A stretch of 64,000 nt of DNA from Haliscomenobacter hydrossis DSM 1100. Its GTDB lineage: Bacteria; Bacteroidota; Bacteroidia; Chitinophagales; Saprospiraceae. The stretch is taken from assembly GCF_000212735.1 (NCBI RefSeq), contig NC_015511.1:62001-126000 (forward strand), written 5' to 3'. The notes beneath the pieces were generated by a model. That model was not told the origin of the DNA. It searched no databases and saw only the letters and a program-made list of their open reading frames with translations. The position numbers were made by a program, and so were the translations under genes. This document shows, one piece after another, positions 953 to 48,508 of this stretch (position 1 is its first letter; every line of letters starts with the position of its first letter).

Positions 953-1099
953 ATGGACAACAAACTACAACAACTGACCGAGGCGCTGGCTACCGGTACT
1001 TTGGAACAACTCCTGAGCCTCCACGAAGAAGCCCTAAACGACCTGGAGGGTGACACCGAAAAACTGTACACAGCCATAGTCCAATACCTGGAGCAATGA
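953..1099 (+). CDS. small acidic hypothetical protein (48 aa)
   Basis: An ATG at 953 opens a 48-residue frame (MDNKLQQLTEALATG...) ending EQ at 1099. It is acidic and predicted helical, with Leu spacing typical of a short coiled coil. Its stop overlaps the next gene's start as ATGA (1096-1099), so the two are almost certainly translationally coupled and it may be a partner of the SLOG-like protein downstream. No known family recognised. Confidence 0.6.
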   Translation: MDNKLQQLTEALATGTLEQLLSLHEEALNDLEGDTEKLYTAIVQYLEQ

Positions 1100-1491
1100 A
1101 ACTACTGATCACGGGCAGCCGCCGGGCCACTGCGCAAGACTACGCAGGCCTGGCGGCTGCCATCCAAAAATATGCCCCCCAGGCCAGCGAGATCCTCCAC
1201 GGCGGAGCGATGGGCGCTGACCAACTGGCAGAACAATACGCCCGGGCGCAGGGACTACCCGTGACCGTGATCCGGCCTGACTATACCCAATGGCCCGCCA
1301 AAGTGGCCCCGCTGAAAAGGAACCACGACCTGGTGGCCCTGGCCGATGGGGTAATTGCGCTGTACAAAGGTAAGCGCAAAGGGGGCACCGCCTATACCGC
1401 CCGGCTGGCGCAGGATGCCGGTAAACTACTGGTGGAACTGCACGACAGCGGAGAATATAAACCTGGTGAGCAACTGAGCATGCCCATATAA
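1096..1491 (+). CDS. SLOG / YspA-like nucleotide-binding protein (DUF2493 type)
   Basis: The 131-residue product begins MKLLITGSRRA, has HGGAMGADQLAEQYA at about 35-49 and NHDLVALADGVIALYKG followed by GGTAYTARLAQ at about 75-105. This order (TGSR, GGAxGAD, then a Gly-rich switch to a second strand) is that of the cpYpsA-like SLOG Rossmann proteins, which bind nucleotide-derived ligands. Length fits a single SLOG domain. Some SLOG proteins serve as sensors or effectors in defence systems, but nothing here proves such a role. Coupled by ATGA to the 48-residue protein before it. Confidence 0.75.
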   Translation: MKLLITGSRRATAQDYAGLAAAIQKYAPQASEILHGGAMGADQLAEQYARAQGLPVTVIRPDYTQWPAKVAPLKRNHDLVALADGVIALYKGKRKGGTAYTARLAQDAGKLLVELHDSGEYKPGEQLSMPI

Positions 1492-1986
1492 GCACAAACT
1501 AGACTGCCCAACCCCGCACGCTGCTACGAGGGGGGAACTGCAATAGGGGAAAAAATCCCCCCCTGCTAAAAATAAAGTGGCGAAGCCGCCGCTTTGCCTT
1601 TCTCCCGACCGCAAGCTGCCCGCTGCGGAACTGCACTAGTACGAAAACTCCCCCCGGAAAAAAGGCCAAGCAATGTGCAGCCAGTGCCGGGCATAGATGC
1701 AAGGTGGAGCGCCCGCAGTGAGCGATTTTTTTTTCTGGTGCGTAGCTTTAGCGGAGCAAACCAGAAAAAAAAACGCGAGCGAGGACGTACGACCTTGCAG
1801 CGATGACTGGCACTGGCTAACTTGCTTTGGCCCTTTTTTGTGGGGGTTTTTGAGCTAGTGCTGGTATGGTGGTGGAGGGGGAATGTTTATCAATTCTAAA
1901 GCAAGATCGAAACCAAATTGTTTTTTATTCCCAAATTATACACTTAAATTTGTTCACAAGGGGTGTTTAAGCCTTTTCAAAAGTTT
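1492..1986. other. gene-free spacer with a T9/A9 hairpin
   Basis: No convincing gene is seen. The first 330 bp are GC-rich with several short hairpins (for example around 1536-1562). A 14-bp perfect inverted repeat lies at 1726-1739 and 1760-1773 (nine T then CTGGT, mirrored as ACCAG then nine A), with GCG/CGC extending both arms past one bulged A; either strand could read it as a terminator. The last 100 bp are AT-rich and probably hold the promoter of the RhuM gene. Confidence 0.5.
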
Positions 1987-3000
1987 ATGTCGATGGATGA
2001 CCAGCAAGCGAATGACCTTATTATTTACCAAACCGCCGATGGCAAAGCCACTGTAGCGCTTTTCGCCAAAGACGGAATGGTATGGATGAACCAAAGTCAA
2101 TTGGCAGAACTTTTTGACACCTCTGTCCCTAATATTAGCATGCACATATCTAACATTCTGAAAGAAGGAGAATTAGAGCAAATTTCAGTTATTAAGGATT
2201 ACTTAACAACTGCCACAGACGGCAAAGAATACAAGGTTACTTTTTATGCGCTTGACATGATCCTGGCCATCGGTTTTCGGGTGCGCAGCAAACGCGGAAC
2301 ACAGTTTCGGATTTGGGCCAACCGCAACCTCAAAGCATATATGGTAAAGGGCTTTGTGATGGATGATGAGCGCTTGAAAAACCCGGATGGGCGGCCCGAC
2401 TACTTTGATGAACTACTGGAACGTATCCGGGACATTCGAGCCTCAGAAAAGCGTTTTTATCAAAAAGTCCGCGATTTGTTTGCCTTGAGTAGTGACTATG
2501 ATCTGACGGACAAAGCCACTCAGATGTTTTTTGCCGAAACACAAAACAAGCTGCTTTACGCGGTTACAGGTCAAACCGCAGCAGAGTTGGTCTTGGCACG
2601 TGCCGACGCCAATGCGCCAAATATGGCACTGAGTTCCTGGAAAGGATCGGTGGTGCGCAAACAGGACATCTTCATTGCCAAAAACTACCTGAGTGATGAC
2701 GAGCTGGACACCTTGAACCGCCTAGTCGTTATTTTCCTGGAAACAGCGGAGTTGAGGGTCAAAAGTCGGAAAGACATTGCCATGCAGTTTTGGCGAGACA
2801 ACGTAGATCGGTTGCTGGAGTTCAATGACAAACAAGTACTCAGTGGTGCAGGGACGATCAGCAATGCCGAGATGGAAGAACGGGTACGGAAAATTTATGA
2901 AGTGTTTGACCAACATCGTAAAGCATATGACGCTAAATTGGCGGATGAAGCAGATTTGCGTGAACTGGAACAGCAGTTGAGCAAACGAAAAGACAAATAA
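1987..3000 (+). CDS. RhuM family protein
   Basis: The protein (337 residues from ATG 1987; a GTG at 1963 would add eight) matches the RhuM family as I know it: an N-terminal IIYQTADGK, then MVWMNQSQLAELFDTS with a helix-turn-helix-like segment, then YKVTFYALDMILAIGFRV and GTQFRIWANRNLKAYMVKGF, followed by the long helical C-terminal half and a charged tail. RhuM proteins were named in Salmonella pathogenicity island 3 and are common on mobile elements and in defence-rich islands; their biochemical role is unsettled. Its stop is 15 bp before the CHAT/NB-ARC gene, so the pair is likely one operon. Start 1987 chosen because family members begin just before the IIYQ strand. Confidence 0.8.
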   Translation: MSMDDQQANDLIIYQTADGKATVALFAKDGMVWMNQSQLAELFDTSVPNISMHISNILKEGELEQISVIKDYLTTATDGKEYKVTFYALDMILAIGFRVRSKRGTQFRIWANRNLKAYMVKGFVMDDERLKNPDGRPDYFDELLERIRDIRASEKRFYQKVRDLFALSSDYDLTDKATQMFFAETQNKLLYAVTGQTAAELVLARADANAPNMALSSWKGSVVRKQDIFIAKNYLSDDELDTLNRLVVIFLETAELRVKSRKDIAMQFWRDNVDRLLEFNDKQVLSGAGTISNAEMEERVRKIYEVFDQHRKAYDAKLADEADLRELEQQLSKRKDK

Positions 3001-3015
3001 TCAAACCCAAACACT

Positions 3016-5517
3016 ATGCCCCAACTGCCGGTCATCCTTACAGCCTTTGCCAACAGCTACGACGCTGATTACCTGGCTCACCTGGAGCAAGAGCACGACC
3101 GTTTGCAACTGATTCTTGCCCCCCTCTCCTACTTGCGGCATGTACCCCTGTCGAATGCCAAAACCGGGCAGCTGGTCAGCACCTTGACCCAGTACCAACA
3201 GGAATTGCTCATTTTCCATTTTGGTGGCCATGCCGATGGAGAACAATTGCAATTTCGGGATGCGGGCGGGCAAGTAGCGGGGTTGGCCGAAACCCTGTCG
3301 CTGCACCCGGAACTAAAACTCGTCTTTCTCAACGGCTGCAACACCCAGGCACAAGTCACGCAGTACCTCGATGCCGGAATCCCTGCTGTTATTGCGACCA
3401 CCTGTTCCGTAGGCGACGGAAAAGCCAAGCAATTTGCGGAGACGTTCTACACCGCACTAGCCACTGGGCATACTCTACAAGATGCATTTACCCGCGCCAA
3501 AGGAGCGATGAAACTGAGCGGGGCAACACCCGCTGGCGAGGAGATCGTAAACCTGCGCGGGGTGCGCCTACGGCAGGAACAAGTAACGGAGCTGCCCTGG
3601 AGGCTGTATGTAGCGGGGGATGAGGTGCTGGGGTGGAAGTTGGAAATGGTATCCAGCAAGGTTAATAGTCTACCCATTCTGCTCAATAACGTGCCGACAA
3701 ATTTTGACCCCAAAACAGACTGTATAGGTAGAGAAACTGAATTGGCTGAATTGCACCAAAAGCTCTCCAATTCCCCCAAAGTGGCCCTCGTGCGTGGCCT
3801 CGGTGGCATTGGCAAAACCACCCTGGCCATGGCATATGTGGCCATTCATCAAGACAAGTACCAGCATCTGGCCTGGATCACCCAGGGCGGTGACCTGATC
3901 AATACCATAGCCCTGGATCAAAGTCTGGCCCTGAGCCTGGAGATGCCCCTACAGCAGGGGGAAGACCTGTCCAGCCGCTTCGTCCAGCTCATGCAAGCCC
4001 TGCGCAGCATCCCTGGGCCCAATCTGTTGGTGATTGACAATGCTACGGAGCAAGTGGCAACCCGTGAATTTTTCCAGCAATTGCCCAAAGCACCCAACTG
4101 GAAGGTACTGGTGACTTCCCGGCAGGATTTGCCGGATTTTGTGGTGATGGAGTTGCAGGTGCTCAGGCCGGAGGCAGCGCTAGAACTGTTTCGATTGTAC
4201 TACCAAGGGGGTAGTGATGTAGAAGCGATGGAACTGCTCCAGGAAATTGGCTACCATACCCTAACGACAGAGCTACTGGCCAAAACCCTCCAACGCAAAA
4301 AGGGGCTACTCTCCATCCCCAAACTACTGGAGACCCTGCGCAAACGCCAACTGGATGACCCCAAACTGGCGGAAAGGCTTTGGGCCAGGCACAGCGGCGA
4401 GGAACGGGGGGTGTTCAAGTATTTAATGAGTCTTTATGAAATGGCCGATTTGGATGAGCAAGAAATCTGGGTCATGCAGCAGTTTGCCGTGCTGCCTGCG
4501 TTACCATTAGAACTTGCCCCATTAGCTGAGTGGCTGGAAATAGACGCTGAGGAACTTAACCAAATTTTGAATGAGTTAGCTGACAAAGGTTGGTTGAGCA
4601 TAAAGGAGGATACTTTTTTGGTGCATCGGTTGATGCAGGAAGTGGTGAAGTATCAGAAGGAACCAGATATTGAGGAATTAGAGCAATTAGTTGATGCAAT
4701 GGCTAACAAAATGACGACAAGTGAATTTGGAAATCCAATAATTGAAAATTTGCCTTGGCTAGAGTATGCAAAAAAAGTTGCAGATTATTTTACTAGCCAC
4801 ACACATTTACCAAAGAAAGCTGCTATTTTATGGAATAATCTTGCCAATGTACTCTCTTTAGCAGGAGACCTTAATGAGTCTACCGTCTTATTGAACCATG
4901 TTTTAGTAAGTTATACTCATATTTATGGTACTGAAAATTTAGAGGTTGCTGGAATAAAATCTAACCTCGCACTTAATTACATGGATTTAGGTGTATTCGA
5001 TCTTGCTGCTCAGTTACTAGAAGAAACACTTGATTCATTCATAAAAAATTATGGCCTAGAGCATATTGAGACTGCTTTGATACTTGGTAACTTGGGAGAG
5101 GCGCATAGAGCCATTGGAAAATACGATCAAGCTAAAGAGGAATTAGAAACAGCATTAAAAATCGACATTGCAAATTTCGGAGATAATCATCCAAGAGTAG
5201 CGACAGTACAATCAAATCTTGCAAATGTGCTTAGAGTTATGGGGAAATATTCCCAAGCCACTAAGTTATACCGAAAAGCGTTAACGATTAACATAAAATA
5301 TTTAGGGGCTGATCACCCAACTGTATCACTTGGTTACCTCAATCTTGCCAATGTCTTAAGTGATAAGGGAAACTTTAAAAAAGCAAAAAGTTTAGCAAAA
5401 AAGGGCTTAAATATTAACATCAAAAATTTCGGAAATAATCATCCTCGTGTTGCAAGTAGCAGATCCACATTAGGAAATATTTTAAACCATTTGGGGGGAA
5501 GCTTCTCAAGCGATTGA
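3016..5517 (+). CDS. CHAT protease - NB-ARC ATPase - TPR protein (STAND/NLR-like), truncated by frameshift
   Basis: N-terminal CHAT (caspase-like) domain, about residues 1-200, with candidate catalytic His72 in HFGGHADG and Cys108 in FLNGCNTQ. An NB-ARC/STAND ATPase follows: P-loop GLGGIGKTT at 261-269, Walker B LLVIDNAT at about 337-344, sensor TSRQ at 367-370, then a winged-helix-like stretch to about 560. From about 620 there are kinesin-light-chain-type TPRs (repeated NLA, GNxxxA, GxNHPRVA). The frame ends at 5517 just after a G6 run (5493-5498); removing one G joins it to the TPRs of 5528-6139, giving about 1040 residues. The architecture is that of bacterial NLR-like sensors in which ligand binding by TPRs triggers oligomerisation and protease activity (family knowledge). 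Lies 15 bp after rhuM. Confidence 0.85.
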   Translation: MPQLPVILTAFANSYDADYLAHLEQEHDRLQLILAPLSYLRHVPLSNAKTGQLVSTLTQYQQELLIFHFGGHADGEQLQFRDAGGQVAGLAETLSLHPELKLVFLNGCNTQAQVTQYLDAGIPAVIATTCSVGDGKAKQFAETFYTALATGHTLQDAFTRAKGAMKLSGATPAGEEIVNLRGVRLRQEQVTELPWRLYVAGDEVLGWKLEMVSSKVNSLPILLNNVPTNFDPKTDCIGRETELAELHQKLSNSPKVALVRGLGGIGKTTLAMAYVAIHQDKYQHLAWITQGGDLINTIALDQSLALSLEMPLQQGEDLSSRFVQLMQALRSIPGPNLLVIDNATEQVATREFFQQLPKAPNWKVLVTSRQDLPDFVVMELQVLRPEAALELFRLYYQGGSDVEAMELLQEIGYHTLTTELLAKTLQRKKGLLSIPKLLETLRKRQLDDPKLAERLWARHSGEERGVFKYLMSLYEMADLDEQEIWVMQQFAVLPALPLELAPLAEWLEIDAEELNQILNELADKGWLSIKEDTFLVHRLMQEVVKYQKEPDIEELEQLVDAMANKMTTSEFGNPIIENLPWLEYAKKVADYFTSHTHLPKKAAILWNNLANVLSLAGDLNESTVLLNHVLVSYTHIYGTENLEVAGIKSNLALNYMDLGVFDLAAQLLEETLDSFIKNYGLEHIETALILGNLGEAHRAIGKYDQAKEELETALKIDIANFGDNHPRVATVQSNLANVLRVMGKYSQATKLYRKALTINIKYLGADHPTVSLGYLNLANVLSDKGNFKKAKSLAKKGLNINIKNFGNNHPRVASSRSTLGNILNHLGGSFSSD
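5493..5498 (+). repeat. G6 homopolymer at the frameshift of the CHAT/NB-ARC/TPR gene
   Basis: Six G in a row. With five, the codons read through as HLGEASQAIELLTMALES, a perfect TPR continuation; with six, the protein ends SFSSD. This is the kind of site where polymerase slippage, phase variation or a base-calling error would act. Confidence 0.8.
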
Positions 5518-5527
5518 ACTATTAACG

Positions 5528-6139
5528 ATGGCATTAGAAAGCAATATCCAAAACTTTGGCGAGCACAGCTTCATTGTCGCTCAAGACTTATCGAACCTAG
5601 CTGACTTACTTCGAAAAAACGGCAAACCCGACGAAGCAGCTGAACTATATGCTAAATCTCTCGATATCAACTTATTAATTTACCAACCAAATCATCCTTT
5701 TATAGCTCAAGGTAGATCAAATCTTGCTGTTGGATATAGAGCAATAGGAAAATTAAAAGAAGCTAAAGAGCTACTCGAATCGGCTCTAAAAAGTGATATA
5801 AACTCATTTGGAGAGGATCACCCCAACGTAGCTAGGCGTCAAGCCAATTTGGCAATGGTATTCAGTGATCTTGGCAAAGATGATCTTGCGATGGAAATAA
5901 TGGAAAAGGCTCTAAAAAATATCGAACAAAATCATGGTCGAGAGCATCATGAATTTGCTGTTAATATCTGGAATCGTGGAATCATATTTTTTAGACAAAG
6001 AGTATACAGTCAAGCAAAAGTAGATTTTGAAAAAGCATTAAAAATTATTGAAAAAACACAAGGTATGAATCACCCACACTATGCAGCGATAGTAAGCTGG
6101 CTGGATGCTGTCAATGAAAAACTTGGTGCTTCCAGTTAA
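5528..6139 (+). CDS. C-terminal TPR part of the frameshifted STAND protein
   Basis: 203 residues of kinesin-light-chain-like TPRs (NLADLLRKNGKPDEAAELYAK; NLAVGYRAIGKLKEAKELLE; NLAMVFSDLGKDDLAMEIME), in the +1 frame relative to the upstream gene and open back through the G6 tract. The repeat register continues exactly across the junction, so it is the missing end of the protein at 3016 rather than an independent gene. If translated separately (ATG 5528) it would be a free TPR protein. Ends 118 bp before the next gene candidate; no T-rich terminator was identified. Confidence 0.8.
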   Translation: MALESNIQNFGEHSFIVAQDLSNLADLLRKNGKPDEAAELYAKSLDINLLIYQPNHPFIAQGRSNLAVGYRAIGKLKEAKELLESALKSDINSFGEDHPNVARRQANLAMVFSDLGKDDLAMEIMEKALKNIEQNHGREHHEFAVNIWNRGIIFFRQRVYSQAKVDFEKALKIIEKTQGMNHPHYAAIVSWLDAVNEKLGASS

Positions 6140-6278
6140 ACGCTTTAATCCATCCAATTTGAGGTAGTCAGAATCCAGTCATTCTGTTCAATATCTCAAA
6201 TTTGCCCTGGTCAAAATCCCGCAAAAGTGCCGTGCATTTTCCATTCTTTCGTTTATCTTGTTTCCCAAACCAGCACCC

Positions 6279-6659
6279 ATGAGTACCAAACCCACGCTCC
6301 TCCCCCCACAAGCCGGCTTTCTCCTCGTCCAAATCGTTTACGGCCTGGTATCCCGTGACTGTCGGGGGATGGGCATCTGCAAGCTACGTCCGGTGTCTCC
6401 TACCCTGGCACATGGAAGCACCAGTCCCTGCGGGTCGAGCATCGCCTGGGCGGGGATGGGGGAGCAAGGCAGCTTTGAGCTGCTGGTGCTCCGGAATACG
6501 GTCAGCGAGGAGCAATGGGAGCGGCGATTTGCCGGGGCCAGATTCGTGATGGAAGAGTCATTTGGGGTGCCGGAGGAGCTATTTGGAGAAAGCCGGGAAA
6601 TCAAAGCCGGGAGCTACCCAGTGGAAGCCATGGGGAATTATCTACGCATTAGCTTTTGA
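6279..6659 (+). CDS. hypothetical protein
   Basis: ATG 6279 gives 126 residues (a TTG at 6258 would add seven). It starts MSTKPTLLPPQAGFLLVQIVYGL, contains GMGICKLRPV at about 37 and a charged C-terminal half that ends GNYLRISF. No signal peptide or known motif. Cys-poor, Gly/Glu-rich. It follows the STAND gene by about 140 bp. I do not recognise a family; codon composition in the second half (VSEEQWERRFAGARFVMEESFG) looks like real protein. Confidence 0.5.
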   Translation: MSTKPTLLPPQAGFLLVQIVYGLVSRDCRGMGICKLRPVSPTLAHGSTSPCGSSIAWAGMGEQGSFELLVLRNTVSEEQWERRFAGARFVMEESFGVPEELFGESREIKAGSYPVEAMGNYLRISF

Positions 6660-6994
6660 GCCCTGTCGATGCTGCCAAGCTTAAAGCACTCATCCAAAAC
6701 CTCGCGCTCAAAGCACCCTTCGCAGCACCGGCGACCGCAGCGGCTTACCGAGCCGCGAGGTGGCGGGGGATGCGAAGATCTAGGGCACGGTGGAAAACGG
6801 ATGCAGGTACCTCACGCTAAATGGGGAAAGCCCAGCTACTGGCCCGAGGAACGCAGTGACGGAGGGCGAGTGGCTGGGCGCTGGTGTACGGTGGAAAGCG
6901 ACAAAAATGAGTACTTGTTGCCAACAAAAAAGGCGAAGCCGAAGCTTCGCCTGCAAATAACAACCCTATATCATAGCAATGCATCTTTGGTCAG
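6660..6994. other. GC-rich gene-free spacer
   Basis: No supported gene on either strand. It is GC-rich with frequent CGCAG/CGGAG/CGAG words that recur in the spacers at 1680-1800 and 8040-8290 (for example GAACGCAGTGACGGAGGGCG here and CCCGCAGCGATAGCGGAGGG at about 8180), suggesting a shared degenerate repeat or common origin of these spacers. Its right end holds the terminator at 6931-6952. Confidence 0.45.
6931..6952 (-). terminator. intrinsic terminator with UUCG tetraloop
   Basis: Arms AGGCGAAGC (6931-6939) and GCTTCGCCT (6944-6952). Read on the minus strand the loop is TTCG closed by C-G, the ultra-stable tetraloop, and the stem is followed by six T. It sits 42 bp after the stop of the small minus gene 6995-7156. 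The same hairpin is repeated at 7757-7778. Confidence 0.8.
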
Positions 6995-7156
6995 TTAAGG
7001 TCCAATCCGGCTGAGGGTCAGGTCGAGAGAGCCGATCTTGGTGCGTCCACTGCTTTCGGCAGTGCTTGGAGTTGCTGTGGAGGTAGTGGAGGCGGAAATG
7101 GAAGTTTGGTTGCCAGTCAGCAGGAGCTGTAGGAAGAGGAAAAAGATAGTGTTCAT
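6995..7156 (-). CDS. small secreted/membrane peptide, paralogue 1 (53 aa)
   Basis: The ATG at 7156 opens a 53-residue frame: hydrophobic start MNTIFFLFLQLLL, then a Ser/Thr-rich linker and a C-terminal TKIGSLDLTLSRIGP. The gene at 7804-7953 encodes a clear paralogue (MNTILFLLLQLLL, Ser/Thr linker, RGKVVDVDLTF). Both have the sequence TAAAGCT directly before ATGAAC and both are followed by the same tetraloop terminator, so they are evidently real transcription units. The N-terminus could be a signal peptide or single membrane helix. Function unknown. A palindromic element (7180-7341) is inserted just upstream. Confidence 0.6.
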   Translation of the reverse strand: MNTIFFLFLQLLLTGNQTSISASTTSTATPSTAESSGRTKIGSLDLTLSRIGP

Positions 7157-7179: not shown

Positions 7180-7341
7180 AGAGTGTGTTTGGGATTCTAC
7201 TTTGCGCTCCAAATGGCTAGAATTCACTCCAATTTCGTTCCAAAAATGCTCATTTAGCACTGCTAAACTCCGCTTTTTGTGCCTCACTGGAGTGGATTCT
7301 AGCTCATTTTCGCTTTCAAAGTAGAATCCCAAACACACTCT
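7180..7341. mobile_element. 162-bp near-palindromic foldback element (MITE-like)
   Basis: Perfect 24-bp terminal inverted repeats lie at 7180-7203 and 7318-7341 (outer end AGAGTGTGTTTGGGATTCTA). Inside, a second pair of arms (GCTAGAATTCACTCCA and its near-complement TGGAGTGGATTCTAGC) and a TTTAGCA/TGCTAAA centre make almost the whole element one hairpin. No transposase and no obvious target-site duplication at the ends. It separates the gene at 7156 from the promoter-like DNA expected upstream of it. Confidence 0.7.
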
Positions 7342-8884: not shown

Positions 8885-9167
8885 AGCAAGCTTTTTTTAG
8901 TGAAAAGTGAAAAGCGAAAAGCAGAGGTGCTTTTGGTTTTAGTGCTTGCGTTGCTATGAAAATAGAGTTGGGTTCAGGAACCGAGAAGCCTGTGCTTGAT
9001 AGAGTGATGGCTGTGTAGCGATTTGTGGGGTAAAGATAGTGGGATTTGGGGAATGGGTCAAGGGGTAGGGTTTTGGAGCTGCGGCCACGGGTCGTCCGTA
9101 CGGAGAAAAGGAAAATGGCGGCGTAATGAAAAATCCCTGGACTTGTTATATACCTGTTAAACCCTTC
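8885..9167. other. intergenic region between divergent genes
   Basis: No gene. The part next to 8884 has short GTGAAAAG/GCGAAAAG repeats (8900-8922). A minus-strand TATCTTTA lies at 9031-9038. The right end leads into the promoter of the metal region. Confidence 0.4.
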
Positions 9168-9205
9168 ATGAAACTAGTTTCATATTACCATCCTGTGTAA
9201 TTTTG
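9168..9205 (+). promoter_or_regulatory. promoter of the metal region with 16-bp palindromic operator
   Basis: TAATTTTG at 9198-9205 fits the Bacteroidota -7 element TAnnTTTG. A perfect 16-bp palindrome, ATGAAACTAGTTTCAT (9168-9183), covers the place where the -33 element should lie, so a dimeric regulator bound there would control the promoter. The first gene starts at 9239, giving a leader of about 27 nt. Confidence 0.55.
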
Positions 9206-9238
9206 TCATTATGAATTGATCACTCAAAACCATTGAAT

Positions 9239-9598
9239 ATGAAAAATGTATTTGCAACATTGTTAACACTGGCTTTTTTTGGCTTAACACAAGGGTTAAC
9301 TGCGCAAACTGCGCAAGCAGCAAAGGATGAAGTAAAAGTAGTCACGGTCAAAGTAAGCGGCGTTTGTTGCAATGGCGATCTAGCTACCATCAAAAAGAAA
9401 TTGGTCAACCAGGAAGGCATTGATGAAGTGACCGCCGACGATGCCAAAAAAGAAGCCACCAACATCAAGGTGAAATACCATACGGCCCTTGTTTCTGAGG
9501 CAAAAATCCGCAGTTTGATTGAAAAAACTGAAGGCTGTGAAAAAGATGGAGAACTACCTTACAAAGTAAAAGCGGTTACTTATTTATCCCCACAATAA
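9239..9598 (+). CDS. secreted heavy-metal-associated (HMA-like) domain protein
   Basis: 119 residues from ATG 9239 (TTG 9233 would add two). Signal peptide MKNVFATLLTLAFFGLTQGLTAQ is followed by an HMA-like ferredoxin fold: VKVVTVKVSGVCCNGDLATIKK, with adjacent Cys (GVCCNG) in place of the usual CxxC, then VTADDAKKEATNIKVKYHTA, and a second-half GCEKDGELPYKVKAV. A periplasmic metal-binding protein or chaperone is likely; the altered cysteine spacing makes the metal uncertain. First gene after the operator at 9168 and 57 bp before a TonB receptor. Confidence 0.7.
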   Translation: MKNVFATLLTLAFFGLTQGLTAQTAQAAKDEVKVVTVKVSGVCCNGDLATIKKKLVNQEGIDEVTADDAKKEATNIKVKYHTALVSEAKIRSLIEKTEGCEKDGELPYKVKAVTYLSPQ

Positions 9599-9655
9599 TA
9601 AACTTCCAGATACCTATACGCCGGATGCATGGTCATCCGGCAAAATCAACTTTCC

Positions 9656-11884
9656 ATGCGCTTACTGTTGCTGCTCACCTTTTTGGTGCCGTTCTCACTC
9701 TTTGGCCAATCGATTAAGGGTAAAATATTTGGTGAAACACCTTCGGGCAACGAAATTTTGCCTGGTGCCACCCTTACCCTCTTGGGCACTACTCAAGGTG
9801 TAGTAAGTAATGAATTTGGCGTTTTTGAACTTACCGTACCCAATGTGGCCGAAGCCAGGTTAGTGGTTTCTTTTTTAGGCTTTCAAACCGACACTGTAGC
9901 TGTGCAAGGCCGCACTTATTTTTCCATTTACCTCAGCCCCGACTCAAAAAACCTCGAAGCTGCTACCATCGTCGCGAAACAAGGCGGCTCTTTTATCTCT
10001 GCTTTACAAGGCATCAAGGTGGAAGTCATCAACCAAAAAGAACTCACCAAAGCAGCCTGCTGCGATCTCGCAGGTTGTTTTGAAACCCAGGGCACCATCC
10101 AGGCTCAAACTACCAACTTGCTACTCAACAGCAAAGAACTCCGCATCCTGGGCTTATCAGGGACCTACAATCAAATTCTGGTGGACGGCATGCCGATGAT
10201 TTTGGGTGGTTCTTTCACGTATGGCATCAGCAGCATTCCCGGCACTTTGGTGGATCAGATTTTTGTGGCCAAAGGTGCCAATTCGGTCTTGCAGGGCTTT
10301 GAAAGCATCAGCGGCCAGGTCAACGTCGTCTTGAAAGAACCGAACCCCGACAAAGAAAAAATTCTGCTCAACGCCTACCTCAATTCCTTTGGGGAAAAGC
10401 ACCTCAACGCCAATTTTTCGACCACCTTGGGCAAAAACTGGAAAAGCCTGACCTCGCTGCACTTGGTGCAACCCGCCAGCAAACGCGACCGCGATGAGGA
10501 TACTTTTTTGGATTTGCCCTTGCTGACCCGTTTGGCCATTTACCAAAAATTCACCCTGGGCGACGAACAAACTGCTGGCTGGAGTAGCAAAATCGGCCTG
10601 CGTTATTTGGATGAAAAACGCATCGGCGGGCAAAGCAATTTTGACGCCAAACGTGATCAGGGCTCCAACCAAGTCTATGGTCAGGTGGTGCAATACCAAC
10701 AACCCGAGTTGTACACCAAAACTGCATATCGCTTTAATCCTCAATCAAAAATATCTTTGATTGCCTCGGCTTTCCAGCACCAGCAATCGGCCTGGTTTGG
10801 CGTTACGCAATACACGTCCAAACACCTGAACGCCTACGCCAACCTACAATACGAACAACTTTGGGCGCAAAAACACGACCTGAAGTTTGGCTTCAGTTAC
10901 CGCCACCTCAACCTGGCCGAAAGCATCCGTTTTTCCAACAATGACCTGGAGCGTACCTTTGCTGGCGACTACCTGCGCCAGGAACGCACCCCCGGGATGT
11001 TTGCCGAAAACGTCTTCAATTTTGACCAATTCAGCATCATTGCTGGAGCCAGAGTCGACCACCATCGGCAGTTTGGTTGGCAATTCGTACCCCGCCTGAC
11101 CCTGCGCTACAATGCGGGGGATGCCACGGTGATCCGCGCCAATGTAGGCCGGGGCTTGCGCTCGGTCAACTTATTTGCGGAAAACATCTCTTTGCTCATC
11201 AGTTCACGCGACATTCAATTTGCGGAGAAACTTGATCTGGAAAAAGCCTGGAATACAGGCATTAACCTTACGCATACCGCCAGTGGGGAGAATTTAGTCG
11301 CAACTTTTTCAACGGATTTGTACCATACTCGCTTCCAAAATCAAATTTTTCCCGATTACGATAGCGACCCAAGTTTGGCCATCATCCAAAATTTTCGGGG
11401 TACTTCAATTTCCAATGGCTTCCAGTTCGACGCCAAGTTTGTGGTAGCTAAAATTTTTGAAGCCAAGTTTGCCTACAACTTTCTGGATGTGTACCGCCGC
11501 ACTGGAGAACGGAAAATCCAGTTGCCTTTTAATGCGAAGCACCGTTTGATGGCTGCTTTTTCCTACGAACCCAAAAACAAACAATGGCACGCTGATGTGA
11601 ACATGCATTGGATGGGGCCACAACGTTTGCCAGATACACGATCTTTACCACAATCTTTCCAACAGCCTGAGTTTTCACGTGCTTTTTCAGTAGCCAATGT
11701 CCAGTTTACCAAAGTTTGGAAAAAGCTGGACCTATATGGAGGTTGTGAAAACCTTTTCGATTTCCGACAAATTCGCCCCATCATCAATTGGCAAAATCCC
11801 TTTGGTGATTATTTTGATACGGCTTTTGCCTGGGGACCTACGCGGGGAAGGGAGTTGTATGTGGGGGTAAGGATGAGGTTATAA
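9656..11884 (+). CDS. TonB-dependent receptor with carboxypeptidase-like N-domain
   Basis: 742 residues from ATG 9656, which gives a clean signal peptide MRLLLLLTFLVPFSLFGQS; an ATG at 9629 lies in the loop of a small hairpin (CCGGATG/CATCCGG, 9621-9640) and is less likely. A CarboxypepD-reg-like domain follows (PGATLTLLGTTQGVVSNEFG), then a plug (ELRILGLSGTYNQILVDGMP; GANSVLQGFESISGQVNVVL) and a beta-barrel ending YVGVRMRL. The plug carries a Cys cluster, AACCDLAGCF, unusual in this family and possibly a metal site. It probably imports a metal complex or other substrate across the outer membrane. Its last ~65 codons are repeated as a relic at 14698-14921. Confidence 0.85.
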   Translation: MRLLLLLTFLVPFSLFGQSIKGKIFGETPSGNEILPGATLTLLGTTQGVVSNEFGVFELTVPNVAEARLVVSFLGFQTDTVAVQGRTYFSIYLSPDSKNLEAATIVAKQGGSFISALQGIKVEVINQKELTKAACCDLAGCFETQGTIQAQTTNLLLNSKELRILGLSGTYNQILVDGMPMILGGSFTYGISSIPGTLVDQIFVAKGANSVLQGFESISGQVNVVLKEPNPDKEKILLNAYLNSFGEKHLNANFSTTLGKNWKSLTSLHLVQPASKRDRDEDTFLDLPLLTRLAIYQKFTLGDEQTAGWSSKIGLRYLDEKRIGGQSNFDAKRDQGSNQVYGQVVQYQQPELYTKTAYRFNPQSKISLIASAFQHQQSAWFGVTQYTSKHLNAYANLQYEQLWAQKHDLKFGFSYRHLNLAESIRFSNNDLERTFAGDYLRQERTPGMFAENVFNFDQFSIIAGARVDHHRQFGWQFVPRLTLRYNAGDATVIRANVGRGLRSVNLFAENISLLISSRDIQFAEKLDLEKAWNTGINLTHTASGENLVATFSTDLYHTRFQNQIFPDYDSDPSLAIIQNFRGTSISNGFQFDAKFVVAKIFEAKFAYNFLDVYRRTGERKIQLPFNAKHRLMAAFSYEPKNKQWHADVNMHWMGPQRLPDTRSLPQSFQQPEFSRAFSVANVQFTKVWKKLDLYGGCENLFDFRQIRPIINWQNPFGDYFDTAFAWGPTRGRELYVGVRMRL

Positions 11885-11980
11885 CTTTAGGTAGGTTTAA
11901 ATTTTTTCTTTCAATCCAAAAAACATTGGGCATTGGTTTTACTGCTAAAGCAATTGTTCAAAAGAGTAAAAATAAGAAAC

Positions 11981-11988
11981 TACCTTTG
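11981..11988 (+). promoter_or_regulatory. TAnnTTTG promoter, nearly leaderless
   Basis: TACCTTTG ends only five bases before the ATG at 11994, so the transcript would start at or next to the start codon. Confidence 0.55.
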
Positions 11989-11993
11989 GCAAC

Positions 11994-12317
11994 ATGAAAA
12001 TTATTTCGTGCATACTTGCTATTTATATTGTACTCTTATCAATAAATCCCTGCTGCTCAGAAAGCAACTGTACGGGCGGCGACCACTATACTAACCAAGA
12101 GCACACGACAGGCCACCATCACCAAGACAAGGATTGCACAGACAATTGTTCACCATTTTTTACATGTGGAACTTGTTTGGGTTTCATTTTACCCGCCACA
12201 ACTTTTCTCTTATTAACTGAACAAGCAGTTACTTTGACACAGTCGGATTTTATTTACAATCCCTTTTTCATTTCAGAGTTCAATCACTCTATCTGGCAAC
12301 CACCAACCATTAGTTAG
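11994..12317 (+). CDS. small Cys/His-rich exported protein (DUF6660-like)
   Basis: 107 residues with a signal peptide or membrane anchor (MKIISCILAIYIVLLSINPC), a Cys/His-rich middle (CCSESNCTGGDHY, HTTGHHHQDKDCTDNC, FTCGTC) and the tail SIWQPPTIS. The CC...HHH...CxxC layout and the terminal WQPP are those of the small Bacteroidota proteins I know as DUF6660, typically beside metal efflux genes or TonB receptors. It probably binds Cu or Zn in the periplasm. It starts the AT-richer segment 11.9-14.7 kb and precedes a TonB receptor by 87 bp. The protein at 15020 ends similarly (IWQPPQIKA). Confidence 0.7.
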   Translation: MKIISCILAIYIVLLSINPCCSESNCTGGDHYTNQEHTTGHHHQDKDCTDNCSPFFTCGTCLGFILPATTFLLLTEQAVTLTQSDFIYNPFFISEFNHSIWQPPTIS

Positions 12318-12404
12318 TGTTTTTGTGGTTTAGACGCAAACTATTTTATGTGGTACGTAGTACCGCTCACAATCCTTTGTTAAACATTAACTAAGTAGTC
12401 AACA

Positions 12405-14576
12405 ATGAAAAAATTTATCCTACTGCTCATCGCAGCAATTAACATAGTAACCGTATTCGGACAAAATTCCTTTAAAGCAGTCATCAAAGACAGCGAAACC
12501 AAAGAACCTTTAATTGGTGCGACAGCTCTTTTAGAAAAAACGGCCAAGGGAGCAATTGTCGATGTAAATGGGATGTTATTAATTGAAGATATCCCAGACG
12601 GTAAACAATTAATCGTGTTCAGTTATGTTGGATACGAAACCCGAAAAGACACTTTCGATTTTCCGCTTTCGTCTACAGAAGCTGTTGAAATACTCTTGAT
12701 GAGTAGTGAAGAAGAATTGGAAGAAATTGTTGTTTCGACAACGAGAAGTACCCGAACAATTGAGAATATCCCAACCCGGTTAGAATTTATTGCAGGAGAA
12801 GAACTAGAGGAAAAAGGGAACATGAAGCCTGGTGATATTCGAATGATGCTAAACGAAAGCACGGGCATTCAAACACAACAAACATCGGCCACGAGTTACA
12901 ATTCATCCATTCGCATACAAGGTCTGGATGGGAAATACACCCAGATTTTGCGGGACGGTTTTCCCCTTTACTCCGGTTTTTCGGGGGGATTAAGTTTGTT
13001 GCAAATTGTCCCACTTGATTTAAAGCAAGTGGAAGTGATCAAAGGAGCATCATCAACGCTTTATGGCGGTGGTGCGATAGCAGGTTTAGTGAATTTGGTT
13101 TCCCAAACCCCGAAGGAAGAAAGAGAACTTAAATTTTTGCTCAACGGAACTTCCGCTTTGGGACTGGACGCTAGTGGTTTTTATGCCCAAAAGTTCAAAA
13201 AAATCGGAACAACTGTTTTTGCATCTTACAATTTAGGAACGCCTTATGACCCTGCTAATATTGGCCTGACTGCTATTCCGAAATTTAGTCGCTACACGGT
13301 TAATCCAAGATTGTTTTTGTATTTTAATGACAAAACTACGTTGAATGTCGGTTTCAATAACACGGCAGAAGTCCGTACCGGAGGCGATATAAAATACATT
13401 CAAGGAAATGGCAATAATATTCACTCTTATTTTGATAGGAATGAAACAAATCGGTTTAGCACACAATTAGGTTTTGACAGAATTCTCAATGAAAAGTCAA
13501 AATTCTCCCTAAAAAACAGTGTGAGCTATTATGACCGAACTATTGAAGTTTCCGATTACGTATTTTCGGGTAAACAGTTGTCTTCATTCAGTGAAATAAA
13601 CTTCACCCATGAAAAAGAAAAAACAGAATGGGTTGGCGGCTTGAATTTGTGGACAGATGAGTTTTCTCAGCAAAAAATTGACACTCAAAAAGTAGTTGAT
13701 TACAATTACACTACTGTTGGCGCATTTGTTCAAAACATTTTTAACGCAACGGAAAAATTCTCTCTTGAGACTGGTTTGAGAGGCGATTACCATAATCAAT
13801 TTGGCTTTTTTGTTTTACCAAGAATTTCCGCAATGCTAAAATTAAATCAAAAATTTACTGTACGATTGGGCGGTGGAATGGGCTACAAAGCACCGACAGT
13901 TTTTACAGAGGATGCAGAGCGAATACAGTTCAGAAATGTTTTGCCCATTAGCATTTCAAAAACAAAAGCCGAGCAGTCCATTGGTGGAAATTTTGACCTC
14001 AACTATAGAACAGCTCTTTCAAAAAAATTATTTTTTAGTATTAATACGCTTTTGTTTTATACACAAGTTAAAAATCCTTTATTACTCGTTGCAAATCCAA
14101 ACGGCTATCATGAATTTCAACAGCCAAAAGGGTTCATCGATACCAAAGGGATTGAAACCAATATCAAATTGACGTATGGAGATTTTAAACTTTTCATCGG
14201 CTACACCTTGGCAGATGTAAAACAGCATTACTCCTCCACTACGACAGATTTTCCCCTTGTGGCAAGACACCGATTGAACAATGTTTTGATGTATGAAATT
14301 GAGGATAAATTAAAAATTGGTCTGGAAGCCTATTATTTCAGCCCGCAAAAATTAAATGACGGTGCAACCGGGAAGCCATATTGGATTAATGGACTAATGG
14401 TTGAAAAACTTTGGGAACGTTTTTCAATATTTGTCAACTTTGAAAACTTCCTTGACACCCGCCAAACACGCTTTGACACCATTTACACAGGGACAATTAC
14501 TAATCCAACTTTCAGAGATATTTACGCCCCTGTGGACGGTTTTGTAATTAATGGAGGGCTAAAACTCAAACTGTGA
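12405..14576 (+). CDS. TonB-dependent receptor
   Basis: 723 residues: signal peptide MKKFILLLIAAINIVTVFGQ, a carboxypeptidase-like N-domain (EPLIGATALLEKTAKGAIVD), a TonB-box-like EEIVVSTTR at about 110, the plug (SSIRIQGLDGKYTQILRDGF; GGGAIAGLVNLVS) and a barrel ending GLKLKL. Full length for the family. Substrate unknown; the DUF6660-like gene before it and efflux genes after it suggest a metal or metallophore. The gene is visibly more AT-rich than its neighbours, in line with separate acquisition of the 11.9-14.7 kb segment. Confidence 0.85.
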   Translation: MKKFILLLIAAINIVTVFGQNSFKAVIKDSETKEPLIGATALLEKTAKGAIVDVNGMLLIEDIPDGKQLIVFSYVGYETRKDTFDFPLSSTEAVEILLMSSEEELEEIVVSTTRSTRTIENIPTRLEFIAGEELEEKGNMKPGDIRMMLNESTGIQTQQTSATSYNSSIRIQGLDGKYTQILRDGFPLYSGFSGGLSLLQIVPLDLKQVEVIKGASSTLYGGGAIAGLVNLVSQTPKEERELKFLLNGTSALGLDASGFYAQKFKKIGTTVFASYNLGTPYDPANIGLTAIPKFSRYTVNPRLFLYFNDKTTLNVGFNNTAEVRTGGDIKYIQGNGNNIHSYFDRNETNRFSTQLGFDRILNEKSKFSLKNSVSYYDRTIEVSDYVFSGKQLSSFSEINFTHEKEKTEWVGGLNLWTDEFSQQKIDTQKVVDYNYTTVGAFVQNIFNATEKFSLETGLRGDYHNQFGFFVLPRISAMLKLNQKFTVRLGGGMGYKAPTVFTEDAERIQFRNVLPISISKTKAEQSIGGNFDLNYRTALSKKLFFSINTLLFYTQVKNPLLLVANPNGYHEFQQPKGFIDTKGIETNIKLTYGDFKLFIGYTLADVKQHYSSTTTDFPLVARHRLNNVLMYEIEDKLKIGLEAYYFSPQKLNDGATGKPYWINGLMVEKLWERFSIFVNFENFLDTRQTRFDTIYTGTITNPTFRDIYAPVDGFVINGGLKLKL

Positions 14577-37126: not shown

Positions 37127-37274
37127 TTCAGCTTGACGCTATGAAAGCCATGAATCAATCCTGCTTTAAGGCATATTTTGATGTCATTCCTGTTTTTAGA
37201 AATGTCATAAAGAATTGGCTATCGGGAAGCTATTCTTTAAAAATGCCGCCAATAAATGTGCACAAAACTTTGTC

Positions 37275-38564
37275 ATGGTTCAAAAAATAATTGAGCTGGC
37301 GTTACAAAACAAGTTGATGGTATTGATGATCTCAACTGCTTTGTTCGCATATGGTCTTTACTCCATCCAGAAAAACCCCATTGATGCGATTCCTGATCTA
37401 AGTGAGAATCAGGTCATCGTTTTCACGGAGTGGATGGGACGTAGCCCTCAGGTCATCGAAGATCAAGTTACTTATCCTTTGGTGAGTAACCTGCAAGGTA
37501 TCCCACAGATTAAAAATATCCGTGGCACTTCGATGTTCGGGATGAGTTTCGTCTATGTGATTTTTGAAGACAATGTAAACACTTATTGGGCCAGAACCAG
37601 GGTCTTGGAGCGACTGAACTTTGCACAACGATTGTTGCCGCAGGGCGTAACGCCTTCATTGGGGCCGGATGGAACAGGTGTTGGACACATCTTTTGGTAC
37701 CATTTGGATGCACCAAAAATGGACCTCGGCGAACAAAGGGCTTTGCAAGATTGGTATGTCAAATTTGCCTTGCAAACTGTCCCAGGAGTGGCCGAGGTAG
37801 CTTCTTTTGGTGGCTTTGAAAAGCAATACCAGTTGGTCATTGATCCGGTGAAATTACAGTACTACAATATTTCACTGATGGACGTCATGAATAAAGTCAA
37901 AGCGAACAATAATGATGTCGGCGGCAGGAAATTTGAAATGGCAGATATGGCCTACATCATTCGTGGCCTGGGGTACATCAAGAACAAGCAGGATATAGAA
38001 GAGATCGCCTTGAACAATTACAATGGTATTCCAATAAAGGTAAAAGACATCGGCAGAGTACAAATGGGTGGAGACTTGCGCCTTGGAATTTTTGACATGG
38101 ACGGCCAAGGCGAGGTAGTAGGCGGGATTGTTGTGATGAGGTATGGCGAAAATGCCAATAAGGTGATTGAAGCCATTAAAGAAAAAATGCAAGAAGTGGA
38201 AAAAGGACTGCCAGAAGGTGTGACCTTTAAAACCTCTTACGACCGCAGTAGCTTGATTCAAGAAGCAATAGCATCCGTAAGAGGTACCCTGATTGAAGAA
38301 ATCATTACCGTTTCAATTGTAGTTCTCCTTTTCCTTTTTCATTGGCGAAGTGCCTTGATCATCATCATTCAATTACCCATTTCTGTTGCGGCTGGTTTTA
38401 TTTTCCTTGAGTTATTTGGCATCTCTTCCAACATCATGTCTTTAACGGGCATCGCCCTGGCCATCGGTGTTGTAGTGGACGATGGTATTGTAATGGTAGA
38501 AAATGCTTATCGACACATCAGTGAGGCTCAGTCAGAAAAATTCAATTCAACGCCTAAAGTGTGA
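37275..38564 (+). CDS. CusA-like RND permease, N-terminal fragment (split gene)
   Basis: 429 residues from ATG 37275 (MVQKIIELALQNKLMVLM; a start at 37215 would prepend unrelated residues). It carries the first half of a copper/silver RND pump: NPIDAIPDLSENQVIVFTEW, FEDNVNTYWARTRVLERL and the TM4 relay GVVVDDGIVMVENAYRHISE, then ends NSTPKV at a TGA (38562-38564) in the TM4-TM5 loop. The rest of the pump is in the next frame, overlapping by GTGA. Removing one GT from the GTGT at 38559-38562 restores a single ~1080-residue pump. Either a recent frameshift or a coupled split protein. Confidence 0.85.
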   Translation: MVQKIIELALQNKLMVLMISTALFAYGLYSIQKNPIDAIPDLSENQVIVFTEWMGRSPQVIEDQVTYPLVSNLQGIPQIKNIRGTSMFGMSFVYVIFEDNVNTYWARTRVLERLNFAQRLLPQGVTPSLGPDGTGVGHIFWYHLDAPKMDLGEQRALQDWYVKFALQTVPGVAEVASFGGFEKQYQLVIDPVKLQYYNISLMDVMNKVKANNNDVGGRKFEMADMAYIIRGLGYIKNKQDIEEIALNNYNGIPIKVKDIGRVQMGGDLRLGIFDMDGQGEVVGGIVVMRYGENANKVIEAIKEKMQEVEKGLPEGVTFKTSYDRSSLIQEAIASVRGTLIEEIITVSIVVLLFLFHWRSALIIIIQLPISVAAGFIFLELFGISSNIMSLTGIALAIGVVVDDGIVMVENAYRHISEAQSEKFNSTPKV

Positions 38565-38566
38565 GC

Positions 38567-40492
38567 ATGGCAAACTGGTTCAAACAAAAAAAAGACCCAC
38601 TAACTGCTGAAGAAAGGGTTGCAATCATTGAAAAATCTTCTCAGCAAGTTGGTCCGGGGGTGTTCAATTCCACTATCATTGTGGTTGCTTCATTCCTTCC
38701 GGTATTTCTGTTGACTGGCATGGAGGGCAAACTCTTTCATCCACTGGCCTGGACAAAGACATTCATTCTGCTGATTGATGCAGTTTTGGCGATTACCCTT
38801 ACTCCGGTATTAATTACTTTTTTTCTGAAAGGAAATCTGAAACCTGAAAGCGCCAACCCCATCACCAGAACTTTGGAAAAAATCTATACGCCCATATTGA
38901 CTTTGTGTTTGAAGTGGCGCAAGACGACCCTGCTGTTCAATATTGCTGCTTTGGCCGCCGGTTTTTTGATGCTAACCCGCCTGGGCTCGGAGTTTATGCC
39001 TCCATTGGATGAAGGCTCTTTGTTGTTCATGCCTGTTACTTTACCTGATGTTTCCAATTCTGAGGTTAAGCGATTGTTACAAGTGCAGGATAAATTAATT
39101 CGCACCGTGCCTGAGGTTGCTCATGTATTGGGCAAAGCTGGACGGGCAAATACGGCAACGGACAATTCTCCCATCAGCATGATCGAAACCATCATTCTGT
39201 TGAAACCCAAAAATGAATGGCGGGAAGGTTTAACCAAAGAAACCATCATCAATGAATTGAACGCCAAAATGCAAATACCTGGAGTGACCAACGGATGGAC
39301 GCAACCCATCATCAACCGGATCAACATGCTTTCCACGGGCATCCGTACCGACGTAGGCATCAAAGTATACGGCCAAAACCTGGATAGCATCTATTCCTTT
39401 GCTCAGACCATTAAAAAACACTTGGAAGGAATAGATGGGGTAAAAGATTTGTATGTGGAACCCATCACTGGCGGAAAGTACATCGACATCATCCTCAAAC
39501 GGGACGAGGTTGGCCGCTATGGGTTGAGTGTAGACGATGTAAATGTAATCATTGAAAGTGCACTCGGTGGGATGAAGCTGACCACCACCATTGAAGGACG
39601 TCAGCGTTTTTCGGTGAATGCACGGTATGGGCAAGACTTCCGCAATAACCTCCAAGCCTTAAAAAGACTACAAGTGCAGACCATGAATTTTGGCCCTATT
39701 CCTTTGGAGGCAGTTGCTGACATTCAACTTAGCAACGGCCCACCCATGATTAATTCCGAAAATGCTATGCTGAGAGGTACAGTGTTGTTCAACGTGCGAG
39801 AAAGGGATTTGGGCAGTACAGTACAGGAGGCCAAAATGAAATTGGACCAGATGCTGACCAAACTCCCTAAAGGATATTTTTTAGCCTGGAGCGGACAGTG
39901 GGAAAACCAAATCCGCGCCAATCGTACCCTGAAAATGATCATCCCTATCGTACTCAGTATCATTTTTATGATATTGTATTTTACTTATCATTCCGTTAAA
40001 GAAGCCCTGATCACGATCATTACAGTACCATTTGCACTCATTGGTGGGGTATTTATGGTGTACTTCTATGGAGTGAATTTATCTGTTGCTGTTGCAGTTG
40101 GCTTTATAGCGTTGTTTGGCATGGCTGTAGAAACCGCTATGCTCATGACCATTTACCTCAATGAAGCTATGCAAAACATGGTTAAAAAACATGGCAACTC
40201 CAAGGCAACGCTCACCCCGGCAATCATCCGATCCTTTGTCATAGAAGGCTCTGCCAAAAGATTGCGGCCTAAACTAATGACTGTGTCGGTCGGATTATTT
40301 GGCTTGATTCCAATCCTATGGGCCAGCGGAGTAGGTAGCGACATCATGCGACCCATTACCATTCCTCTGATTGGAGGGACAATTAGCTCGACCATTTATG
40401 TTCTACTGATCACTCCAGTGATCTTTGAAATGATCAAGGAAAGGGAATTGAATCGAAATGGCAAAATTGAATTGATCGATGTCAAAGAATAA
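38567..40492 (+). CDS. CusA-like RND permease, C-terminal fragment (split gene)
   Basis: 641 residues from ATG 38567 (a GTG at 38561 overlaps the previous stop). It begins in the linker (MANWFKQKKDPLTAEERVAI), continues with TM5 (QVGPGVFNSTIIVVASFLPV) and holds the second periplasmic loop and TM7-TM12. EFMPPLDEGSLLFMPVTLPD has the Met-rich CusA signature, so Cu(I)/Ag(I) is the likely substrate. Both halves together contain every segment of a normal pump and no other damage is seen, so if the overlap allows reinitiation the pump could still work. Overlaps the TolC gene start by 14 bp. Confidence 0.85.
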   Translation: MANWFKQKKDPLTAEERVAIIEKSSQQVGPGVFNSTIIVVASFLPVFLLTGMEGKLFHPLAWTKTFILLIDAVLAITLTPVLITFFLKGNLKPESANPITRTLEKIYTPILTLCLKWRKTTLLFNIAALAAGFLMLTRLGSEFMPPLDEGSLLFMPVTLPDVSNSEVKRLLQVQDKLIRTVPEVAHVLGKAGRANTATDNSPISMIETIILLKPKNEWREGLTKETIINELNAKMQIPGVTNGWTQPIINRINMLSTGIRTDVGIKVYGQNLDSIYSFAQTIKKHLEGIDGVKDLYVEPITGGKYIDIILKRDEVGRYGLSVDDVNVIIESALGGMKLTTTIEGRQRFSVNARYGQDFRNNLQALKRLQVQTMNFGPIPLEAVADIQLSNGPPMINSENAMLRGTVLFNVRERDLGSTVQEAKMKLDQMLTKLPKGYFLAWSGQWENQIRANRTLKMIIPIVLSIIFMILYFTYHSVKEALITIITVPFALIGGVFMVYFYGVNLSVAVAVGFIALFGMAVETAMLMTIYLNEAMQNMVKKHGNSKATLTPAIIRSFVIEGSAKRLRPKLMTVSVGLFGLIPILWASGVGSDIMRPITIPLIGGTISSTIYVLLITPVIFEMIKERELNRNGKIELIDVKE

Positions 40493-48483: not shown

Positions 48484-48508
48484 TTACCTAAAAGTTAAAT
48501 CTCCCATC

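Follow-up and report, generated by a model that had tools for sequence, protein, structure and literature searches.

A plasmid locus of Haliscomenobacter hydrossis with a RhuM gene beside a predicted NLR-like CHAT receptor and variable modules

Results

The locus and its genomic setting

In plasmid C2 of Haliscomenobacter hydrossis DSM 1100, a gene predicted to encode a RhuM family protein ends 15 bp before, and lies in the same direction as, a gene predicted to encode a protein with an N-terminal CHAT domain, an NB-ARC switch, a winged-helix region and a C-terminal array of TPRs (Table 1). The reading frame of this array breaks at a tract of six G and continues in a second ORF one base on. 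An imperfect palindrome, which we call the hairpin leader, precedes RhuM; a gene for a SLOG-type protein lies further upstream and a gene for a small 126-aa protein lies downstream. The window is the whole 64,000-nucleotide stretch that was analysed, positions 62001-126000 of C2.

Table 1. Features of the locus, in window coordinates
Feature	Position	Strand	Basis
SLOG-type protein (YAcAr, 131 aa)	1096..1491	+	Pfam PF10686 1.1e-11
Hairpin leader, imperfect palindrome of ~229 nt, about 90 base pairs	1633..1861		DNA fold z -10.1 vs shuffles, on 1610-1883
Putative exchangeable slot, leader to CHAT gene; RhuM here	1884..3003		96% pHALHY02 identity stops at 1883, resumes at 3004
RhuM family protein, 337 aa	1987..3000	+	PF13310 1.4e-108; PADLOC PDC-S05 8.4e-146
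CHAT - NB-ARC - winged-helix region - TPR protein, 833 aa as read	3016..5517	+	ORF, Pfam, model, Foldseek
CHAT (caspase-like) domain, His72/Cys108	3016..3663	+	PF12770 2.4e-9
NB-ARC switch region, P-loop residues 261-269	3733..4500	+	PF00931 1.0e-9
TPR sensor block of low GC, apparently swapped	4500..6011	+	GC break; G125:C191 identity stops at 4499, resumes at 6012
GGGGGG tract, break of the TPR reading frame	5493..5498	+	ORF frames, sequence
Downstream ORF, remaining TPR array, 203 aa	5528..6139	+	TPR_12 1.7e-29
Small 126-aa protein	6279..6659	+	Behind the CHAT-STAND-TPR genes of four slot loci
Second long palindrome, far side of locus	7180..7341		Palindrome search

The genome of DSM 1100 has 8,771,651 bases in four contigs: a chromosome of 8,371,686 bases and the plasmids C2 (164,019 bases), C3 (143,757 bases) and C4 (92,189 bases). 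By the plasmid order in a section of the genome report (PMC3156403), C2 is pHALHY01, and we refer to C3 as pHALHY02. The same report describes H. hydrossis as a sheathed bacterium of freshwater origin, and a passage of PMC8195603 terms it filamentous. The second species of the genus is represented by Saprospiraceae bacterium C1_MAG_00026, here called G125. Positions 48338-52608 of the window, which read as genes for a copper-type ATPase and kelch-like proteins, share 99.0% identity with G125 contig C159, suggesting that the two species have recently shared plasmid DNA; this contig also bears a related CHAT-NB-ARC-TPR gene. Elsewhere in the window (37215-40492), what reads as a CusA-like RND efflux gene consists of two ORFs (449 and 643 aa) that overlap by 4 bp at a join without a long homopolymer. 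It is the second large gene in the window that looks broken or split.

The CHAT gene is predicted to encode an NLR-like receptor

The Pfam match at the N-terminus together with a His72/Cys108 dyad, each residue being conserved in at least 90% of 24 aligned CHAT sequences, identifies a predicted CHAT protease. Both residues are missing in one of eight aligned sequences, a G125 paralog (L084:8178). Within the NB-ARC P-loop, G261, G264, G266, K267 and T268 are invariant in eight of eight aligned sequences, the window's own included. TPR_12 matches the C-terminal part of this first ORF at 9.6e-35. The predicted model (pLDDT 84.5, with a modest pTM of 0.55) has helices for about five TPRs plus the opening helix of a further one, and the best Foldseek matches of these repeats are TPR structures of kinesin light chain. 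The protein thus appears to combine a STAND NTPase with an intact P-loop, an N-terminal effector and C-terminal repeats, the architecture of NLR-like antiviral STAND proteins. The Foldseek list includes Avs3 (E 3.6e-9), the plant NLR RPP1 and a wheat NB-ARC resistosome, with low TM-scores of 0.26 or less on full NLR chains (Avs3 0.10-0.19; RPP1 0.20-0.26). A PADLOC scan of the ORF at 0.001 returned a TPR model alone and no Avs or NLR model, and the lack of an Avs profile match at this threshold argues against membership in Avs1-4 proper. An earlier note on this DNA had read the gene order and 15-bp gap, the catalytic dyad, the P-loop, the kinesin-type repeats, the broken array, the NLR-like layout and the upstream SLOG ORF from the letters and their translations, and the ORF, Pfam and Foldseek results agree with it on each of these points.

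The order of effector, STAND NTPase and repeat sensor is the one seen in Avs and other bacterial NLR-like proteins. According to a section of PMC10907252, such proteins bind phage proteins with their C-terminal TPR sensors and cause death by way of their N-terminal effectors. The window protein differs in that its effector is a CHAT domain and its switch is of the NB-ARC type, besides its lack of a PADLOC Avs match. It also resembles fungal NLRs with near-identical TPR repeats, in which TPR arrays serve as interchangeable units of recognition: Foldseek lists the Podospora TPR structure 4y6c among the matches of the window ORF, and the TPRs of the related pHALHY02 receptor are encoded by 126-bp DNA repeats matching at 83%, whereas the window array has no such DNA repeats. 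A passage of PMC10907252 on fungal non-self recognition suggests an alternative role of this kind in multicellular bacteria, and by analogy the window receptor may serve non-self recognition as an alternative to anti-phage defence.

RhuM has a predicted phage Bro-N-type domain

The RhuM gene starts at ATG 1987 or at GTG 1963. The -7 element of Bacteroidetes reads TAnnTTTG, and the sequence TAAATTTG at 1945-1952, about 35 bp 5' of the ATG and present in the G125 copy also, is presumably a match to it. The PF13310 and PDC-S05 profiles match over the whole length of the protein, which places it in the RhuM family; PDC-S05 is a candidate phage-defence family. The window gene differs from this family at large in its neighbor, since most RhuM loci examined here lack CHAT.

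The AlphaFold2 model of RhuM (pLDDT 86.5, with a modest pTM of 0.63) has an N-terminal domain of strands and helices and a helical C-terminal part. Searching viral models (BFVD, Foldseek) with it gave 37 matches at 0.001 or better, many of them nameless; those with names include Bro-N, Ant, KilA-N and repressor-domain proteins. The N-terminal domain aligns with Bro-N/Ant proteins (for example, TMt 0.68 over 105 columns), pointing to a Bro-N fold, and PHROG gave a match to the anti-repressor Ant at 1.9e-4. The Pfam search contained no Bro-N match for RhuM. Whole-fold matches had low TM-scores, as did the only match to reach 0.001 in the PDB search, DdrC of Deinococcus. The modeled N-terminal fold fits with DNA binding. 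A section of PMC3710099 proposed RhuM as a toxin adjoining restriction systems, whereas the model obtained here has an N-terminal domain of the phage Bro-N type; RhuM, with its helical C-terminal part beyond that domain, may nevertheless have a toxin role. Viral contigs searched for close RhuM relatives gave none, and a search for distant ones gave identities of up to 67% among the best 80 of 193 stretches. Two other proteins encoded in the window on the same plasmid (52659-53510 and 61839-62699) are ones that we take, from their motif, to be KilA-N phage-type DNA-binding proteins.

Four loci share their ends and differ in between

Four loci, all from one genus, were compared: the window, pHALHY02, G125:C191 and a second G125 locus spread over contigs C57 and C159. 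All share the hairpin leader, which is cut by a contig end in the C57 copy, and the start of the CHAT gene. The leader occurs in two of the five genomes of the genus, with two copies in each. Its 91 pairs were compared in three copies, of which two are nearly identical: six pairs had compensatory double changes, one had a one-sided change and five had an unpaired cell, and six double changes were not reached in any of 500 shuffles. It had no Rfam match and was therefore rejected as a known RNA element, while the far-side palindrome gave one miRNA hit in Rfam, far below threshold. Nor are long palindromes a mark unique to this locus, since those scoring over 40 bits are common across the plasmids and a chromosome sample (18 on C2, 17 on C3, 9 on C4 and 14 in 78 kb of chromosome). 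The leader may act as an insulating terminator, a recombination site or an RNA.

The slot between leader and CHAT gene holds RhuM in two loci, a PDC-M62 ATPase/nuclease pair with a CHAT-NACHT gene in one and almost nothing in one. The near-empty locus is that of pHALHY02, which is 96% identical to the window over 1-1883 (100% over 1801-1883) and then has a 352-bp RhuM-less stretch with a short ORF. Its CHAT head starts at 96% identity (3004-3103) and falls below 55% past 3600 (44-54% over 3604-4000), the gene continuing with another NTPase and TPR array as an uninterrupted 1041-aa protein; downstream, identity is again 82-98% over 6150-7049. The short ORF in this slot (L045 11470-11821) has a CxxCH motif and may be the remnant of an HNH nuclease gene. 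The second G125 locus has, in order, the leader, an ATPase gene and an HNH-like gene (PDC-M62A and B), a CHAT-NACHT gene and a CHAT-NB-ARC-TPR gene. The last of these is split over two contigs whose ends overlap by an exact 119 bp, and its C159 part has an open frame of 804 aa, with the 126-aa gene behind it. A Septu-like ATPase/HNH pair occupies the same slot there; it lies outside the window, and its best match is PDC-M62, with PtuA/PtuB distant.

Composition also changes within the receptor gene, GC being 34-39% across the TPR block and 52-58% over 3001-4500 (36% for the TPR block vs 54.5% for NB-ARC). These breaks in identity and GC indicate that leader, slot, receptor body and tail have different histories. 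The ends are fixed among the four loci, whereas companion gene, NTPase and TPR sensor, as predicted from the sequences, vary from one locus to another, and exchange between loci would most simply have occurred by recombination. The 126-aa protein had no match in Pfam or PADLOC. Its relatives, mostly distant in similarity, occur in 50 of 298 genomes, and it was rejected as a dedicated partner for that reason. In G125:C191, the 126-aa gene 3' of the RhuM-CHAT pair is interrupted by an ORF that reads as transposase-like (L084 4626-5804). The SLOG protein is 97.7% identical in amino acids to its copy on plasmid C3. It sits on a backbone common to the window and the RhuM-less pHALHY02 locus, the two loci compared here (G125:C191 begins inside the leader), so we rejected it as a third component; it is probably not part of the RhuM-CHAT pair.

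The RhuM-CHAT pair is old in the genus and rare in the family

G125:C191 has RhuM followed by a CHAT-NB-ARC-TPR gene at an equal gap of 15 bp, and the DNA is 84.6% identical over window positions 1567-4499. Between the two species, dN/dS is 0.054 for RhuM (dS 0.82), 0.133 for CHAT (dS 1.03) and 0.125 for NB-ARC (dS 0.38; 91.4% amino acid identity over residues 217-495). Parts of core genes from the same two genomes gave a dS of 0.685 (rpoB) and 0.983 (recA). The dS of RhuM is in the range of the core genes and dN/dS is low, so the pair dates from about the time of the species split and selection has kept both genes. The lower dS of NB-ARC, and thus the unequal dS across the gene, suggests recombination and a mosaic gene.

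At E 0.001, RhuM was found in at least 90 and the CHAT head in at least 100 of 298 family genomes. At least 67 RhuM matches scored 293 bits or more; 66 were used, representing 65 distinct loci including the window (G048:C51 was left out, and G018:C8, present as both L092 and L152, was counted once). Dropping four with broken RhuM ORFs left 61 loci, several of them cut by contig ends. Only the window and G125 had CHAT nearby, as sought with the window protein at 1e-8, a search that very distant CHAT proteins would escape. Conversely, RhuM occurred at one of 79 CHAT loci, again that of G125 (named genomes; the best 80 of 136 relatives, giving 79 loci). On these counts we rejected RhuM-CHAT as a widespread system: independent, recurrent pairing was not found among the matches listed, which contain one orthologous pair in two species of one genus. 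Among the papers searched, none mentions both 'RhuM' and 'CHAT domain'.

The genome of DSM 1100 has three other RhuM genes. Two have no CHAT nearby, and the third reads as a RhuM-Fic-like protein between type I restriction genes. Two close relatives of the window RhuM (about 72%) have different neighbors, by reading a PLD-like/helicase cluster in one case and type I restriction genes in the other. Upstream partners were surveyed at 75 of the 79 CHAT loci (L216, L224, L226 and L248, with little or no upstream sequence, were omitted), and 53 of these had an upstream ORF. It encoded a caspase protein at 16 of 53 by Pfam or 15 of 53 by PADLOC, so many of the distant CHAT proteins belong to another system. 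Elsewhere on plasmid C2, outside the window (L008 502-2205), and at L088 3867-6452, CHAT heads 71% and 64% identical to that of the window sit on another body followed by a gene that reads as a MoxR-like ATPase; by this reading, the same effector head is reused in a ternary-type system. Another CHAT-headed gene of G125 (L087 4722-9053) and the gene before it (9064-13794) have long arrays of a different kind, with a very regular repeat of ~34 residues.

The frame break lies in a short, ordinary G tract

TPRs are matched before the break as well as after it. The coding DNA of the three plasmids (328 kb; ORFs of 150 aa or more) contains 67 runs of exactly six G or C and 20 longer runs, and a second G6 at 4406 in the same CHAT gene is without a frame break. 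In relatives the receptor is uninterrupted (872, 1041 and 1030 aa, and the 804-aa stretch, which starts at the CHAT end). In three of four relatives the TPR part lacks G runs of five or longer; in the fourth (G125:C159) there are two runs of five G, neither at the aligned place. Thus, a long tract kept at the same site in relatives, as phase variation would have it, was not found: the tract has six G here and is absent at that place in the four relatives compared. For the last 42 codons, dN/dS was 0.81 against G125 and 0.25 against pHALHY02, with too few sites to judge constraint. The ~1040 aa given for a full form is an arithmetic figure only. We conclude that the frame break is either a private one-base change or an assembly error.

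Discussion

We consider it probable (roughly 0.7) that positions 3016-6139 encode an NLR-like receptor for defence or cell death and that this plasmid locus exchanges modules, with RhuM as the receptor's current companion and the frame break as a derived change or an assembly error. By analogy with such receptors, the TPR array would bind an invader or self ligand, the NB-ARC module would assemble after ligand binding, and the N-terminal CHAT domain would be set free to act as a caspase-like protease, killing or arresting the cell and so limiting phage. The locus would have a fixed front, formed by the hairpin leader and CHAT head, and a fixed rear, formed by the C-terminal end and the 126-aa gene; between them the companion gene, NTPase and TPR sensor would be exchanged, most simply by recombination. 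RhuM would be the present occupant of the companion slot and most likely a phage-antirepressor-like DNA-binding protein, acting as a regulator or as a second defence gene. The frame break, if real, would leave an 833-aa receptor with about half its TPRs, probably impaired.

The earlier note had suggested that RhuM and the receptor could form a two-gene defence system, a reading that the match of RhuM to PDC-S05 supports, and that the pairing should recur in other genomes. In its strict form, RhuM and the CHAT receptor would be one obligatory defence system in which RhuM either signals to the TPR sensor after sensing or marking invading DNA, or restrains the CHAT protease. The conservation of order, orientation and the 15-bp gap in two species at a dS of about 0.8-1.0, with strong purifying selection on both genes and no gene between them, argues for this. 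However, pHALHY02 and the second G125 locus have CHAT receptors behind the same leader without RhuM, CHAT was not seen at 59 of 61 distinct RhuM loci (some of which are cut by contig ends), and the two ~72% RhuM relatives adjoin, by reading, a PLD-like/helicase cluster or type I restriction genes. We therefore regard an obligatory system as unlikely: the pair itself persists under selection in a second species, but in the loci examined it is not widespread and recurrence was not borne out, and RhuM is one of several contents of the slot. The locus could also be a dedicated cassette that diversifies NLR-like receptors, with the hairpin, CHAT head, C-terminal cap and 126-aa gene guiding recombination between plasmids of one cell, the companion defence gene, NTPase and sensor being exchanged, and antirepressor-like RhuM serving as one partner that gates the receptor. 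We hold this to be a speculative and rather improbable extension. Modular swapping of effectors and sensors and expansion of paralogs are features shared with the diversifying conflict systems of multicellular bacteria described by the Aravind group. According to a passage of PMC8195603, another conflict family (GT4) has 11 paralogs in H. hydrossis, and the effector differs in each; the likeness has its limits, as word searches of that paper returned no RhuM and no CHAT domain, and those of PMC7159879 returned neither.

Three rival explanations concern the frame break. The earlier note had proposed that the G tract is a slippage-prone, phase-variable site toggling a long and an 833-aa receptor. 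After the tract, the second frame runs for over 200 codons without a stop and matches TPRs well, which would suit such a switch, although the same observation would also fit a break that is recent, tolerated or recoded. Against it, a tract of six G is short and ordinary (67 such runs in 328 kb), the four relatives have uninterrupted arrays and no tract at the aligned place, and the shift needed is +1, which ordinary -1 ribosomal slippage would not supply. We rejected the switch as the main reading and consider it highly improbable. Homopolymers are the classic fault of 454 sequencing, and the far side of the tract is fully open, as it would be if the gene were one intact ORF and the tract length an assembly error. 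According to a section of PMC3156403, the genome was assembled from 454 and Illumina data with a stated error rate below 1 in 100,000, a rate at which a 164-kb plasmid could still contain one or two errors; in the same section, however, the assembly is said to have been corrected with Illumina reads at 165x. An assembly error is a realistic possibility that falls short of an even chance. Finally, a break within the sensor could mark the receptor as a decaying pseudogene and the locus as no longer functional in DSM 1100. This is doubtful, since there is no other break in 3016-6139 and CHAT and NB-ARC are under purifying selection, as judged from pairwise comparisons that are blind to very recent loss.

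The G-tract switch, the most striking part of the first reading of this DNA, falls to a low-priority idea. RhuM, a "virulence protein family" in Pfam, gains a testable structural identity as a phage Bro-N/antirepressor-type protein. If the locus were indeed a dedicated cassette, one promoter and one effector would serve changing sensors. Two plasmids of one cell and a second species carry the same locus assembled differently, and together they offer a natural comparison set for how NLR-like receptors change sensors and partners.
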